The notes below the pieces were generated by a model. That model worked only from the letters and a program-made list of their open reading frames with translations, ran no database searches and was not told where the DNA came from. Below, in pieces: positions 11,049 through 60,968 of a stretch of 64,000 nt of DNA (positions are counted from its first letter, which is position 1; each line of letters begins with the position of its first letter). The position numbers and the translations under genes are program-made. Source of the DNA: Chloroflexota bacterium (GTDB taxonomy: Bacteria; Chloroflexota; Anaerolineae; UBA4142); the NCBI GenBank assembly GCA_016219275.1, contig JACRBM010000023.1, positions 1-64,000 on the forward strand. Reading direction: 5' to 3'.

Positions 11049-11060
11049 TGCCAGGATTAA

Positions 11061-11145
11061 GTAATCAGTAATCAGTGTTCAGTATTCAGACTGAACACTG
11101 AATACTGATTACTGTTCACTGCTCACCGTTCACTGCCGACTGACC
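11061..11145. repeat. Long heptamer-array palindrome (NNNCAGT units)
   Basis: On the minus strand eight 7-base units ending in CAGT run in succession, followed by complementary TGAATAC/TGAACAC/TGATTAC units. The two arms fold on each other. The element lies between convergent genes, and its right end encodes the last residues and stop of the EamA-like protein. A related array lies at 60905. Confidence 0.88.
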
Positions 11146-15752: not shown

Positions 15753-15815
15753 GACGGAGGACGGATGACCAAAGACGGAAAATCATCCGTCCTCCGTCTT
15801 TCGTCTTCCGTCTTC
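15753..15815. repeat. Heptamer palindrome (GACGGAG/GACGGAT units)
   Basis: The units GACGGAG, GACGGAT, GACCAAA and GACGGAA are followed by CCGTCCT, CCGTCTT, TCGTCTT and CCGTCTT, all spaced by 7 bases. It lies immediately upstream of the echA-like Shine-Dalgarno sequence. Confidence 0.85.
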
Positions 15816-20810: not shown

Positions 20811-20844
20811 CCTATTAGCCACGTCCTTAAGCGTGGCTAATAGG
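20811..20844. repeat. TTAGCCACG palindrome, copy 1
   Basis: CCTATTAGCCACG and CGTGGCTAATAGG are perfect arms around TCCTTAAG. It shares its core with the longer copy at 21639. It lies between livG and livF. Confidence 0.85.
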
Positions 20845-21627: not shown

Positions 21628-21638
21628 GCTGCCTCCGC

Positions 21639-21678
21639 ACCCCTTTAGCCACGCCCTTAAGGGCGTGGCTAAAGGGGT
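21639..21678. repeat. TTAGCCACG palindrome, copy 2 (perfect)
   Basis: The arms ACCCCTTTAGCCACGCCCTT and AAGGGCGTGGCTAAAGGGGT form a perfect 40-base palindrome between the amino-acid permease gene and livG. The core matches 20811. Confidence 0.9.
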
Positions 21679-21679
21679 G

Positions 21680-28179: not shown

Positions 28180-30213
28180 ATGCCCAAACGCGCTATCACC
28201 GTTGACGATTTGTTCAACATTCGACTTGTTTTCGATCCGCAGATTTCGCCCGACGGCAAAACCGTTGCGTTTGTTTTGACGACGCCCGATCTCGCGCGCG
28301 ATGCGTACCACTCGCACATCTGGCTCGTGCCAAGCGATGGTTCGGCGTCGCCGCGCCAATTCACGTTCGGCGAAGGCAAAGACCGCGCACCGCGTTGGTC
28401 GCCGGATGGCAAACGGCTTGCGTTCATCTCGGATCGCGAAAAGGACAAGGCGGAGCAACTCTGTCTCATCGCGATCACCGGCGGCGAAGCGCAACGCCTC
28501 ACCGACGACGCGAACAAACCGAGCGCGCCGGTCTGGTCGCCTGACGGCACATTGATCGCGTACACTTCGAAGGTGGTTACACAAGACTCAAAAACCGCGA
28601 ACGGCGTGCGCGATAACTCTGACGTGAAATCGTACACGCGGCTCAACTATAAAGCCGATGGCGAAGGATTGTGGGATTACGCGTGGCGACAGGTCTTCGT
28701 CTTCACCCCTCTCCCCTCTCCTGACCAAAAGTCAGGAGAGGGGAGAGGGGGCAGGGGGAGTGGGGTGAGGCAACTCACGCGCGGCGCGTTCAACCACACC
28801 GCACCGACCTGGTCGCCCGATAGCAAAACGCTTGTGTTCGCGGCGAATCGTACCGCGCGCGCCGACGAAACGAACGTCACCGATTTGTGGGCAGTGCCGG
28901 CGCAGGGTGGTGCGATCAGACGGCTCACGCGCGGCAGAGGTCCAGCGAGCGCGCCGGCGTTTTCGCCCGATGGCAAGTGGCTCGCGTTCGTTGGACATGC
29001 GAATGAATTCTCGCGCGTGACCCAGCCCGGTATCTATCTGCTTCCGGCGCGCGGCGGCGTGGTTCGCAAACTCACGATCAATTTTGATCGCGGGTACGGC
29101 AGCACGATTGTCACCGACCTACGTGCGGGCGAAGAGTCTGTGCTTGCTCCGCAGTGGTCGGGCGATTCCAGCACGGTGTACTTTCTCGCGACCGACGGCG
29201 GCACGAGTAATGTTTACACCGCGACAATGCGCGATCTCCAGGTCAAACAGGTTACACAAGGCGAACACCAGGTCTTTGATTTCTCGTACTCGCGCGCGGC
29301 GAATCGTTTTGCGCTGGCGATCACCGATGCGCTCAACCCGAACGATGTGTTTGTCGCGCGCGCGAACAATCCGCGCCCGACGCGTGTCACGCGTGTCAAC
29401 GCCGATTGGCTCGCGTCGGTGCAACTTGCCATGCCGGAGCGATTCACGGTGCCGCGTGACGATGGCTGGGATGTCGAAGCGTGGTTGATGAAGCCGATTG
29501 GCTGGCGCGCCGGGAAGAAATATCCGGTCGTGTTGGAAATTCACGGCGGTCCGCACAGCGCGTACGGCGCGGCGTTCTTTCACGAGTTTCAACTGTTGTG
29601 TGCGCGCGGATTCGCCGTCGTGTTCACGAATCCGCGCGGCAGTGCCGGCTATGGTCAGGATTTCGTCAAGGCGACGTACCACGATTGGGGCGGGGGCGAT
29701 TATCGCGACTTGATGGCGGCGATGGATCACGCGCTCGAAAAATGTCCCTGGCTTGATAGCAAACAGTGCGGCGTCGCGGGCGGATCGTACGGCGGGTACA
29801 TGACCGATTGGATTATCACGCACACGCATCGTTTTCGCGCGGCGGTCGCGATGCGCGCGCTCAATAATTTTTACTCGTTCTACGGCACGAGCGACATCGG
29901 ACACTTTTTCGCGACGGACTGGGAAGTGGGGGACGAGCCGTGGAATAATCCGGAGGAATATCTCGCGCATTCGCCGATCGCGCACGTGGCGCAGTGCCAG
30001 ACGCCACTGCTGATTTTGCACGGCGAAAAAGATATGCGTTGTCCCACCGAACAAGCCGAACAATTTTACATCGCGCTCAAAAAACTGGGCGTGCCGACCG
30101 AGTTCGTCCGTTTCCCCGATGCGTCGCACAACTTGTCGCGCAATGGCAAGCCGAAACTGCGAAAGGAACGGTTAGAACGAATTGTCGCATGGTTTGCACG
30201 CTACTTGAGGTAA
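28180..30213 (+). CDS. S9-family prolyl oligopeptidase-like serine peptidase
   Basis: A 677-residue peptidase with an N-terminal beta-propeller (about 10-420, with repeated SPDGK blades) and a C-terminal alpha/beta hydrolase domain (about 430-677). The triad is visible as Ser in GGSYGGYMTD, Asp in GEKDMRCP and His in SHNLSRNG. It cleaves short peptides and is probably cytoplasmic, as no signal peptide is seen. A palindromic repeat is inserted in frame at residues about 175-197. Start 28180 has AAGGAG upstream, and TATAAT lies at 28146. Confidence 0.95.
   Translation: MPKRAITVDDLFNIRLVFDPQISPDGKTVAFVLTTPDLARDAYHSHIWLVPSDGSASPRQFTFGEGKDRAPRWSPDGKRLAFISDREKDKAEQLCLIAITGGEAQRLTDDANKPSAPVWSPDGTLIAYTSKVVTQDSKTANGVRDNSDVKSYTRLNYKADGEGLWDYAWRQVFVFTPLPSPDQKSGEGRGGRGSGVRQLTRGAFNHTAPTWSPDSKTLVFAANRTARADETNVTDLWAVPAQGGAIRRLTRGRGPASAPAFSPDGKWLAFVGHANEFSRVTQPGIYLLPARGGVVRKLTINFDRGYGSTIVTDLRAGEESVLAPQWSGDSSTVYFLATDGGTSNVYTATMRDLQVKQVTQGEHQVFDFSYSRAANRFALAITDALNPNDVFVARANNPRPTRVTRVNADWLASVQLAMPERFTVPRDDGWDVEAWLMKPIGWRAGKKYPVVLEIHGGPHSAYGAAFFHEFQLLCARGFAVVFTNPRGSAGYGQDFVKATYHDWGGGDYRDLMAAMDHALEKCPWLDSKQCGVAGGSYGGYMTDWIITHTHRFRAAVAMRALNNFYSFYGTSDIGHFFATDWEVGDEPWNNPEEYLAHSPIAHVAQCQTPLLILHGEKDMRCPTEQAEQFYIALKKLGVPTEFVRFPDASHNLSRNGKPKLRKERLERIVAWFARYLR
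28704..28770. repeat. Heptamer palindrome inserted inside the S9 peptidase gene
   Basis: CACCCCTCTCCCCTCTCC pairs with GGAGAGGGGAGAGG around TGACCAAAAGTCA, and the right arm continues as heptamers GGGCAGG, GGGAGTG and GGGTGAG. It adds about 23 residues rich in Gly, Arg, Ser and Pro (SPDQKSGEGRGGRGSG) between two propeller strands without breaking the frame. Confidence 0.88.
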
Positions 30214-30214
30214 A

Positions 30215-30259
30215 AATAAAATCCAGGTTTCTCCCCTTCGGAGAAACCTGGATTTTATT
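30215..30259. terminator. Bidirectional terminator between S9 peptidase and amylase
   Basis: AATAAAATCCAGGTTTCTCC and GGAGAAACCTGGATTTTATT are perfect arms around CCTTC. A/T runs on both sides let it serve the two convergent genes. Confidence 0.92.
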
Positions 30260-31704
30260 TACGACGCGAATAGCGCACCGGTGCGCGCGGGCAGGTGAAT
30301 GCCGCGCGCGTATCCGTCTTGCACGACGATTTCTTCGCGTGACCATTCCTCGATCAAGCGCGTGTCGTTCGGCGCGAACGGCGCGACGCGCACATCCAAC
30401 GTGACCGGCTCGCGGCTCGCGTTGATGGCGATGAGCGCGCAATCACCCTCGCGATGCCGCGCGAACACGATGACCTTGCCCTCGGCGTACAGCACGTGGA
30501 AACTGCCGCGCCGCAACGCGGGATGATTCGTGCGCGCCAGGGCGAGCCGCCGCGTCCACTCGATCAACTCGCGATTGACCCGCGCCGGATCCCAGATCAT
30601 CCCGCGCCGATTGTCCGGGTCTTTGCCGCCTTCCAACGCGATTTCATCGCCATAGTACAGCATCGGCGCGCCGACGAACGCAAAGAGCGTGAGCAGTGCG
30701 AGTTTGAATAAACCGAGATCGCCGCGCAAGAGCGTCGCAAAGCGCGCGGTGTCGTGGCTATTCAGCAGATTCATTTGCGCGAAGGTGATGTCTTCGGGAT
30801 ACCAGGTCAATTGATCGGCGAGCGCGCGCGCGAACGCGTCCGCATCCATCGCGGGCACGTCGCCGTACGTGTGTCCGTAGATCAGCCCGCGCGTGGTGTG
30901 GTCGAGATCGGCAAAGAAACCAATCGCCGCGCGCGTGAACTGATAATTCATCACCGCGTCGAACTGATCGCCTTGCAACCAGCGGTCGGCGCGCTGCCAA
31001 ATTTCGCCGACGATGTACGCCTGGGAGTTGATCGCTTTGACGCGGCGGCGAAACTCGCGCCAGAATTCGTCGTCGTCAATTTCGCTCGGCACGTCGAGCC
31101 GCCAACCGTCAATGCCGGCGCGCGTCCAATGCTCCGCGACGCGAAAAATAAACTCGCGCACCTGGGTGTTGCGATGGTTGAATTTCGGCAATGCCGGGAT
31201 GCCCCACCACGCGTCATAGTTGCTCGCGCCCTCGTATGCCTTGACCGGAAAACCATGAAAGTTGAACCACTCGCGGTACGGCGACCGCGCGCCGTTTTCG
31301 AGCGCGTGGTTGAATTGATAAAACCCGCGGCTCGCGTGATTGAACACGCCGTCGAGAATCACGCGCAAGCCGCGCGCGTGCGCCGCGTCGAGCAAGGTCT
31401 GGAACGCCGCGTTGCCGCCGAGGATCGGGTCAATCTGAAAATAATCGTGCGTGTGGTAGCGATGATTCGCAGTGGATTGAAACACGGGCGTAAAGTACAG
31501 CGTGTTCACACCCAGGTGTTGGAGATAATCGAGTCGCTCGACGACGCCGAGCAGATCGCCGCCTTTGAATCCGAACGCCGTCGGCGGTGTGTCCCAGGGT
31601 TCGAGGTTGTCCGGTTTTTCGACCTGACTGTTCGAGGCGAAACGGTCGGGGAAGATTTCGTAGATGATGGCGTCGTGCACCCAGTCGGGGGTTATGGCTG
31701 ACAT
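30259..31704 (-). CDS. GH13 alpha-amylase-family glycosidase (neopullulanase-like)
   Basis: A 481-residue GH13 enzyme without a signal peptide, so it acts on imported or stored alpha-glucans. Conserved regions are DGVFNH (region I), GWRLDVPSEI with the Asp nucleophile, VGEIW with the acid/base Glu, and NSHDTAR with the third Asp. The N-terminal VHDAIIYEIFPDRF is typical of neopullulanase and cyclomaltodextrinase forms, but the usual extra N-terminal domain is absent. GGAG lies 9 bases before the ATG. Confidence 0.95.
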   Translation of the reverse strand: MSAITPDWVHDAIIYEIFPDRFASNSQVEKPDNLEPWDTPPTAFGFKGGDLLGVVERLDYLQHLGVNTLYFTPVFQSTANHRYHTHDYFQIDPILGGNAAFQTLLDAAHARGLRVILDGVFNHASRGFYQFNHALENGARSPYREWFNFHGFPVKAYEGASNYDAWWGIPALPKFNHRNTQVREFIFRVAEHWTRAGIDGWRLDVPSEIDDDEFWREFRRRVKAINSQAYIVGEIWQRADRWLQGDQFDAVMNYQFTRAAIGFFADLDHTTRGLIYGHTYGDVPAMDADAFARALADQLTWYPEDITFAQMNLLNSHDTARFATLLRGDLGLFKLALLTLFAFVGAPMLYYGDEIALEGGKDPDNRRGMIWDPARVNRELIEWTRRLALARTNHPALRRGSFHVLYAEGKVIVFARHREGDCALIAINASREPVTLDVRVAPFAPNDTRLIEEWSREEIVVQDGYARGIHLPARTGALFAS

Positions 31705-35012: not shown

Positions 35013-35035
35013 GTCCTCTTGTTGGAATTGGTACA

Positions 35036-35086
35036 CAGTCAACAGTCAATAGTCGTCTACTTTTGACTGTTGACTGTTGACTGACG
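35036..35086. repeat. Heptamer palindrome (CAGTCAA units)
   Basis: CAGTCAACAGTCAATAGTC is followed by GACTGTTGACTGTTGACTG, with 7-base periodicity. It lies between the MacB-type permease stop and the TolB-like start. Confidence 0.85.
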
Positions 35087-54600: not shown

Positions 54601-54632
54601 ACGTGTAGGGGCGGGGGAACCCCGCCCCTACG
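54601..54632. repeat. GTAGGGGCGGGG palindrome
   Basis: ACGTGTAGGGGCGGGG and CCCCGCCCCTACGT pair around GAA. It lies between the binding-protein and ATPase genes and may reduce read-through or protect the binding-protein mRNA. Confidence 0.88.
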
Positions 54633-58961: not shown

Positions 58962-60064
58962 CAACGCTCGAAGCCAAACTCACCCGCACGTTCGATTTCG
59001 CGGGCAAGCAGCTCAAATATCTCATCGAAACGTATCCGCGCCTATTGCCGATGTACACGATGAACGGCAAGTGGAAACACAGCGGCGAGTCGTGGACGAA
59101 CTGGTGCGAAGGATTTCTCGGCGGGCAGTTGTGGTTGATGTTCCAACATACCGGCGACGCGCGCTTCGCGTGGCGCGCCAAAGCCGAATACTATTCGCGC
59201 CTCATCGAAGAACGTAAAGATGATCGCAACGTGCACGATCTGGGATTTCTCTTCTGGTCAACGTGGAAACGCTGGTACGATGTGACCGGCGATCCAGTGA
59301 TCAACGACGTGGTCGTCCACGCGGGCAAAACGTTGTCGTTGCGTTTCAAAGAAAAAGGTCAATACTTGCGTTCGTTCGTTTCGGATGAAAGTTGCTTCAT
59401 TGACATTATGATGAATGTCGGCATCATTTTCTACGCGGCGCAACAATTGAACGACGCCGATATGCTCCGCAAGGCGACCCAGCATTGTCTCACGACGCGC
59501 AAGTACCTGGTGCGTGGCGATGGCAGTACGTCGCACGAAGGAATCTTTGACACGAACACCGGCGAATTTCTCCGGCAAACGACGCATCAAGGTTTTCGCA
59601 ATGATTCATCCTGGGCGCGTGGATTGACCTGGGCGTTGTACGGATTCGGCGCCGCGTACTCGTTCACGCGCGACGAGCGCTTGTTGCAAACCGCTGAGGC
59701 GTGCGCGAATTTCTACATCGAGCGCACACCCGCGCATGGCGTCCCGCCGAACGACTGGGACGAGCCGAATCCCAAACTGCCGTACGAAAGTTCCGCCGCC
59801 GCGATTGCCGCGAGCGGAATGTGGAATCTTGCGAAACTCACGGGCGACACGGCGCGCGCGCGCCTGTATCGCGATTACGCGCTAAACATTCTCGACACGC
59901 TCACCGAGCCGGAATTTCTCGCGATGGAAACGCCGGGCTGGGAAGGCATTTTGAAGCACGGGATGTACCATCAACGCAAAGGTCTGGGCGTGGACGAAAG
60001 CGTGATGTGGGGCGAGTATTTCTTCCTTGAGGCAGTCTATAAAGTTTTGCACGAGGGGCAGTGA
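58958..60064 (+). CDS. GH88-family unsaturated glucuronyl hydrolase-like protein
   Basis: A 368-residue (alpha/alpha)6-barrel protein of glycoside hydrolase family 88. The two Asp positions of this family are visible in VHDLGFLFW (about 87-95) and CFIDIMMNVGI (about 146-156), and the C-terminal LPYESSAAAIAASGMWNLA is typical. Members remove unsaturated uronic acids from oligosaccharides made by polysaccharide lyases. There is no signal peptide, so it acts on imported material. Start 58958 overlaps the preceding stop by four bases (ATGA). Confidence 0.93.
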   Translation: MTTLEAKLTRTFDFAGKQLKYLIETYPRLLPMYTMNGKWKHSGESWTNWCEGFLGGQLWLMFQHTGDARFAWRAKAEYYSRLIEERKDDRNVHDLGFLFWSTWKRWYDVTGDPVINDVVVHAGKTLSLRFKEKGQYLRSFVSDESCFIDIMMNVGIIFYAAQQLNDADMLRKATQHCLTTRKYLVRGDGSTSHEGIFDTNTGEFLRQTTHQGFRNDSSWARGLTWALYGFGAAYSFTRDERLLQTAEACANFYIERTPAHGVPPNDWDEPNPKLPYESSAAAIAASGMWNLAKLTGDTARARLYRDYALNILDTLTEPEFLAMETPGWEGILKHGMYHQRKGLGVDESVMWGEYFFLEAVYKVLHEGQ

Positions 60065-60115
60065 CAGGTAGACAGGGAGACAAGTAAACCTGTCTCCCTG
60101 TCTACCTGTTTACCC
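60063..60115. repeat. Octamer palindrome (ACAGGTAG units)
   Basis: ACAGGTAG, ACAGGGAG and ACAAGTAA face TGTCTCCC, TGTCTACC and TGTTTACC. Both arms have 8-base units. It begins at the stop codon of the GH88 gene. Confidence 0.87.
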
Positions 60116-60900: not shown

Positions 60901-60904
60901 TGCC

Positions 60905-60968
60905 AGCATTCAGTGTTCAGTATTCAGAAACTGAACACTGAACACTGAACACTGAATACTGAATACTG
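60905..60968. repeat. Heptamer palindrome (CAGTGTT/CTGAACA units)
   Basis: CAGCATT, CAGTGTT and CAGTATT are followed by CTGAACA three times and CTGAATA twice. The family is the same as at 11061. The last unit reads CTGGAG and supplies the Shine-Dalgarno for the next gene. Confidence 0.9.

Follow-up and report, generated by a model that had tools for sequence, protein, structure and literature searches.

How does a palindromic repeat come to be read in frame within a peptidase gene? The question is raised by a 64,000-nucleotide stretch of a Chloroflexota bacterium (Anaerolineae; assembly GCA_016219275.1, contig JACRBM010000023.1, positions 1 to 64,000, the whole of which is referred to as the window), where a gene for an S9 peptidase includes such a repeat. 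A preliminary description of the window had regarded it as a protein-coding insertion. The analysis reported here indicates that the stretch is very probably one copy of a non-autonomous palindrome family resembling repetitive extragenic palindromic (REP) sequences and Rickettsia palindromic elements (RPEs), which was inserted in a turn of the S9 protein after the split from sister genera and kept as an in-frame, stop-free and disordered loop.

The palindromic repeat of the S9 peptidase gene

The S9 reading frame is open from the ATG at 28180 through the stop ending at 30213, and its product matches Peptidase_S9 (E 5e-54) and also contains PD40 propeller repeats, with the S9 peptidase 8wt1 and the acyl-peptide hydrolase 5yzm as closest solved structures. 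Within this frame a 5-nt loop separates two perfect 20-bp arms, in accordance with the in-frame palindrome first described. In 20 simulated 64-kb windows (Markov-1) the longest perfect arm reached 10-16 bp, which excludes a chance origin of the hairpin.

Other details of the preliminary description had to be revised. The element, placed there at 28704-28770, does end at 28770, but its recognisable start is at 28706, and positions 28702-28705 are perhaps a remnant of the left end. Instead of about 67 bases adding about 23 residues, there are 65 nt and 22 encoded residues, of which only 14 are a net gain, an 8-residue turn being gone. The sequence VRQLTRG was taken as native flank, but its V and R are encoded by the last two codons of the element, GTG AGG, and the native sequence resumes at Q. 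The term heptamer palindrome fits the arms, which amount to 2.3 CCCCTCT units, but the unit itself is a palindrome of about 90 nt with conserved ends. In the AlphaFold model (nine-sequence alignment) the insert (residues 181-194) shows a predicted local distance difference test (pLDDT) score below 50 and lies between strands at 169-175 and 197-198; as expected, it is predicted to occupy a tolerant, disordered surface loop between propeller strands, in line with the tolerant loop initially proposed.

A separate perfect 21-bp hairpin, located between A and T runs at 30214-30260, immediately 3' of the S9 stop and between convergent genes, constitutes a bidirectional terminator-like site.

The repeat family in the genome

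A BLAST search of the own genome with a 69-nt query produced 72 matches, the best of them 80-89% identical over nearly the full length, and a covariance model built on 17 copies gave 89 matches on both strands, corresponding to about 37 loci. Full copies (76-117 nt) consist of CCTCACCCC, a variable tail, CCCCTCTCCCCTCTCC-TGA, a variable loop, TCA-GGAGAGGGGAGAGGGG, a second tail and GGGGTGAGG. The 9-bp inverted ends CCTCACCCC...GGGGTGAGG are present in full-length copies; the window copy has the right end only and lacks most of the left tail, which comprises about 20 nt in other copies. The last 17 nt of its right tail (GGGGGAGTGGGGTGAGG) recur exactly in the loci L049, L054, L062, L052 and L072, among others. 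Copies at unrelated loci thus show that the family disperses as a unit of about 90 nt with inverted ends.

A codon-usage score together with Pfam places eight of the 37 loci within unrelated conserved genes, each copy being read in frame (Table 1), and a shorter related palindrome was also found inside a YfhO protein (L080). The copies avoid coding sequence, with a P<1e-13 for this genic fraction even at 80% coding, and open frames are rarer in them than in shuffled versions of the same copies (32% vs 47%). In-frame placement is therefore attributed to selection and not to design: the element is not built for translation, and the in-frame copies are survivors of selection. For 19 of the 29 non-genic copies, the start lies at a distance of 0-11 nt from the stop codon that closes the adjacent upstream gene. 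No broken gene was observed at five of them in a non-exhaustive inspection, four having different Pfam families on either side and one being checked on one side. A search of 60 relatives detected palindromes of the type CCCTCTCC...GGAGAGGG in 46, many of which clearly exceeded the reversed control; in the own genome they numbered 49 vs 2 in its reversed control.

The L087 helicase gene contains a second, shorter in-frame palindrome in another loop (TPPAPSPEGEGRGEV). Non-genic copies (e.g. L048, L153, L157, L088, L089, L076) are mostly located between co-directional genes, and four copies lie between the genes of a sugar-transport operon (C91:21.7-28.8 kb, L076).

Table 1. Features of the S9 peptidase gene and its repeat (window positions), and copies of the family read in frame (loci).
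Feature	Position or locus	Strand	Remarks
S9 peptidase gene (prolyl oligopeptidase/acylaminoacyl-peptidase-like)	28180..30213	+	677 aa, uninterrupted frame
Possible truncated left terminal repeat, TTCACCCC	28702..28709	.	family form CCTCACCCC
22 codons, TPLPSPDQKSGEGRGGRGSGVR	28705..28770	+	in place of the 8-residue orthologue turn (e.g. PVAGGKAR) in the alignment; disordered in the model
Copy of the dispersed palindromic repeat	28706..28770	.	65 nt; full family members 76-117 nt
Hairpin left arm, CCCCTCTCCCCTCTCCTGAC	28706..28725	.	20 bp
Hairpin right arm, GTCAGGAGAGGGGAGAGGGG	28731..28750	.	perfect complement of the left arm
Right tail, GCAGGGGGAGTGGGGTGAGG	28751..28770	.	ends in the terminal GGGGTGAGG of the family
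In-frame copy, S9 peptidase	window		
In-frame copy, Cas6	L054		
In-frame copy, double-GNAT protein	L056		
In-frame copy, RlmD/TrmA-like methyltransferase	L067/L083		CxxC-type cysteine loop
In-frame copy, URO-D family protein	L062/L081		
In-frame copy, MrfA-like helicase	L087		
In-frame copy, GT4 glycosyltransferase	L085		
In-frame copy, NB-ARC protein	L086		

The S9 turn in orthologues

The window protein was compared with S9 orthologues from four further genera in its family (L002, L003, L004 and L008), with identities of 70% (G001), 69% (G002), 65% (G010) and 61% (G008). Their turn between the two propeller strands has 8 residues (PVAGGKAR, QIADGISQ, SPDGGNEK), or 13 in G008 (PSPFQNESEGKAR), and turns are also short in most of the more distant S9 proteins. 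The window protein has 22 residues, all or nearly all element-coded, where about 8 native ones stood, a net gain of 14 residues (42 nt). Since the four orthologues retain an ordinary turn of 8-13 residues, the S9 insertion is lineage-specific. A scan of GTDB contigs gave no relative closer than these orthologues.

Palindromes in the same coding loops of other genera

At two other genes the element behaves as an addition, because the net gain is close to one element length: 99 nt for a 98-nt element at the URO-D site and 78 nt for a 76-nt element at the RlmD site. The URO-D insert is absent in G002, G004, G006 and G013, and as read from the sequence G012 carries another palindrome, GCAACCTT-CGC-AAGGTTGC, at the same place. 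The RlmD loop is empty in G004 and G009 (HFGACGGC, HFGDCGGC). In G000, G007 and G008 it contains the window-repeat family with a common loop (GACGAAYTRCGTC), which suggests that the insertion in these three genera was probably one old event; G008 differs by a paired T-A to C-G change. The RlmD copy of G007 shares 89% identity with the MrfA copy of G000 and 81% with the RlmD copy of G000, values that are compatible with both independent insertion and replacement of an older element. In G011 the RlmD loop holds another palindrome type (CCCCCTTCTCCCTCCCC...), 90% identical to another G011 locus, and in G001 (L101) an in-frame GTAGGGGCGGGG-TCA-CCCCGCCCC.

In G006 (L125) the second loop of MrfA contains an in-frame TGTCATTGCGAG...CGCAATGACA palindrome, and the G006 genome has about 40 more copies of it, with identities of up to 92%. 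Palindromes of the CCCTCCCC type are found in this loop in G010, G012 and G000, and none in G011 and G001. The presence of different palindromes in frame at the RlmD and MrfA loops, with other genera empty, shows that the repeats do spread into coding loops, and palindrome families have entered such loops repeatedly in this group. A broader proposal, in which the RlmD Fe-S loop, the MrfA loops, URO-D and the S9 turn are recurrent landing sites where unrelated palindrome families swap in frame by a templated replacement that keeps palindromes perfect, is considered rather doubtful.

Two of these palindromes also have counterparts in the genome of the window. An intergenic GTAG-tagged REP-like palindrome (GTAGGGGCGGGG..CCCCGCCCCTAC), of the same kind as that in the G001 RlmD loop, is located at window positions 54605-54631, and many copies of the TGTCATTGCGAG...CGCAATGACA palindrome occur in the window's own genome as well.

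Mode of insertion

According to the favoured explanation, the unit of about 90 nt with ends CCTCACCCC...GGGGTGAGG would move in trans by an enzyme, or by template switching, and a copy would have entered the S9 turn between two propeller strands after the lineage had diverged from the sister genera. The insertion itself, or a later deletion, would have cost the native loop about 24-27 nt and the element the greater part of its left tail, and purifying selection may have acted as a filter, the S9 copy persisting since its frame is kept and free of stops and its residues fall in a disordered loop at the surface. Past insertion rather than expansion in place, as argued in the preliminary description, is upheld by some 37 unrelated loci with common ends, eight of them in frame, and by four orthologues without the element. 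Likewise, no S9 orthologue with an equally long loop of unrelated sequence was found. The clean boundary and target duplication that had been envisaged did not emerge from the comparison: the native loop is replaced, the element's left tail is mostly missing and no duplication is visible. The missing native loop rules out that S9 received a clean insertion with target duplication.

Several points weigh against this explanation. With the native S9 turn gone, the site requires either replacement or insertion followed by deletion, and simple insertion does not fit. No target duplication is obvious in the flanks of the inspected copies. The genome has one Y1_Tnp gene (C40:90181), the only transposase type searched for, and no copy of the element lies beside it. 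Moreover, the source data are draft genomes in many contigs, and those that can be named are metagenome assemblies.

The loss of the native loop would also follow if the S9 loop had been overwritten from another family copy by gene conversion or template switching, and not by transposition. The lack of a visible target duplication, the different palindromes at one site and the palindromes that have stayed perfect in three genera at a single RlmD site, with their paired change (G007 vs G008), agree with such templated replacement; however, the gains of nearly full element length at URO-D and RlmD fit plain insertion, and insertion followed by deletion accounts for S9 equally well, so that replacement is judged unlikely, though it keeps some weight.

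A REP in the strict sense, belonging to the GTAG or CGTC superfamily and mobilised by a REP-associated tyrosine transposase (RAYT) of the Y1 type, would fit the lack of a visible target duplication, and as described for REPs (PMC3733652) the palindromes are small and mostly lie right behind upstream stop codons, with some in open reading frames. But the element ends without a GTAG or CGTC tag and the sole Y1_Tnp gene has no flanking copies, which makes this origin quite improbable.

Local growth of the palindrome, in which a G/C-rich native turn like PDGSG underwent heptamer slippage and hairpin-templated repair, could explain why the arms are made of 2.3 CCCCTCT units, why the tail GSGVR could pass as a native turn and why the net gain of 42 nt equals six heptamers. 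This reading is largely refuted by about 36 other places that hold the repeat unit with conserved ends, and unrelated loci match the 65 nt, with the 17-nt tail included, at 80-89% identity; local expansion is thus very improbable. Finally, the wrong joining of a repeat into the S9 contig, conceivable for repeat sequence in a draft assembly of 107 contigs, is scarcely credible, since frame and S9 homology are kept on both sides and there are eight independent in-frame cases, plus others in different assemblies.

Other palindromes in the window

A second palindrome, TAGCCACG(C/T)CCTTAAGG(A/G)CGTGGCTA, occurs alone at 20811-20844 and 21638-21679, and also sits inside the CCCCTCT-family copies L062/L081, L157, L085, L158, L077, L154 and L084, where it forms the loop. 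Hairpins whose arms are repeated 7- or 8-nt units (ACTGAAC, CAGTCAA, ACAGGTAG and others) are located at 11055-11140, 15753-15798, 35035-35084, 60064-60114 and 60904-60968, all at gene borders; they are distinct from the CCCCTCT family and have the same construction.

Comparison with known palindromic elements

Insertions of this kind are already known from RPEs and intragenic REPs, and as far as the literature was searched the family and the lineage are new: no description of coding palindromes in Chloroflexi/Anaerolineae was found beyond PMC3733652, and a literature search with the motif TCATTGCGAG gave chance matches only. Protein-coding palindromes are best known in Rickettsia and Wolbachia, and the present results add free-living Anaerolineales to their hosts. 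In this group a single codon position can be examined across many genera and with several palindrome families, so that both the movement of the repeats and any benefit to proteins become testable by comparison. The results also advise caution, as Gly/Arg/Pro/Ser-rich inserts in such genomes can derive from repeats.

The element resembles miniature inverted-repeat transposable elements (MITEs) in being a non-autonomous repeat with terminal inverted repeats, but its ends are of 9 bp vs the 15-30 bp of MITEs (PMC3733652), target duplication is not visible and no parent transposon was found in a search for Y1_Tnp only. Intragenic REPs have been reported in many species, with different REPs near the same recB site in two Xanthomonas species and REPs placed close behind stop codons (PMC3733652), and the present family shares with GTAG/CGTC REPs both the occurrence of different palindromes at about one site and the placement behind stop codons. 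It differs from them in its ends CCTCACCCC/GGGGTGAGG, which carry no tag, in its larger, two-tailed palindrome and in having no RAYT neighbour; judged by these ends, it is outside both REP superfamilies, GTAG and CGTC.

Wolbachia palindromic elements (WPEs; Ogata 2005, as cited in PMC3733652) are also protein-coding palindromic repeats outside Rickettsia, and by their description there they are set apart by the host group and presumably by sequence. The RPEs, as outlined in PMC10969869 and PMC3733652 (Ogata et al. 2000, 2002), are of about 150 bp, nearly half of them lie in genes and each encodes a conserved peptide. Unlike RPEs as so described, the present elements are of about 90 nt, with eight of 37 in genes, other ends and a Chloroflexota host. 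Like them, they are dispersed palindromes found in frame in unrelated protein genes, where they add tens of tolerated residues (PMC10969869, PMC3733652), and both a dispersed palindrome family and its in-frame entry into several unrelated genes with conserved flanks were observed here.
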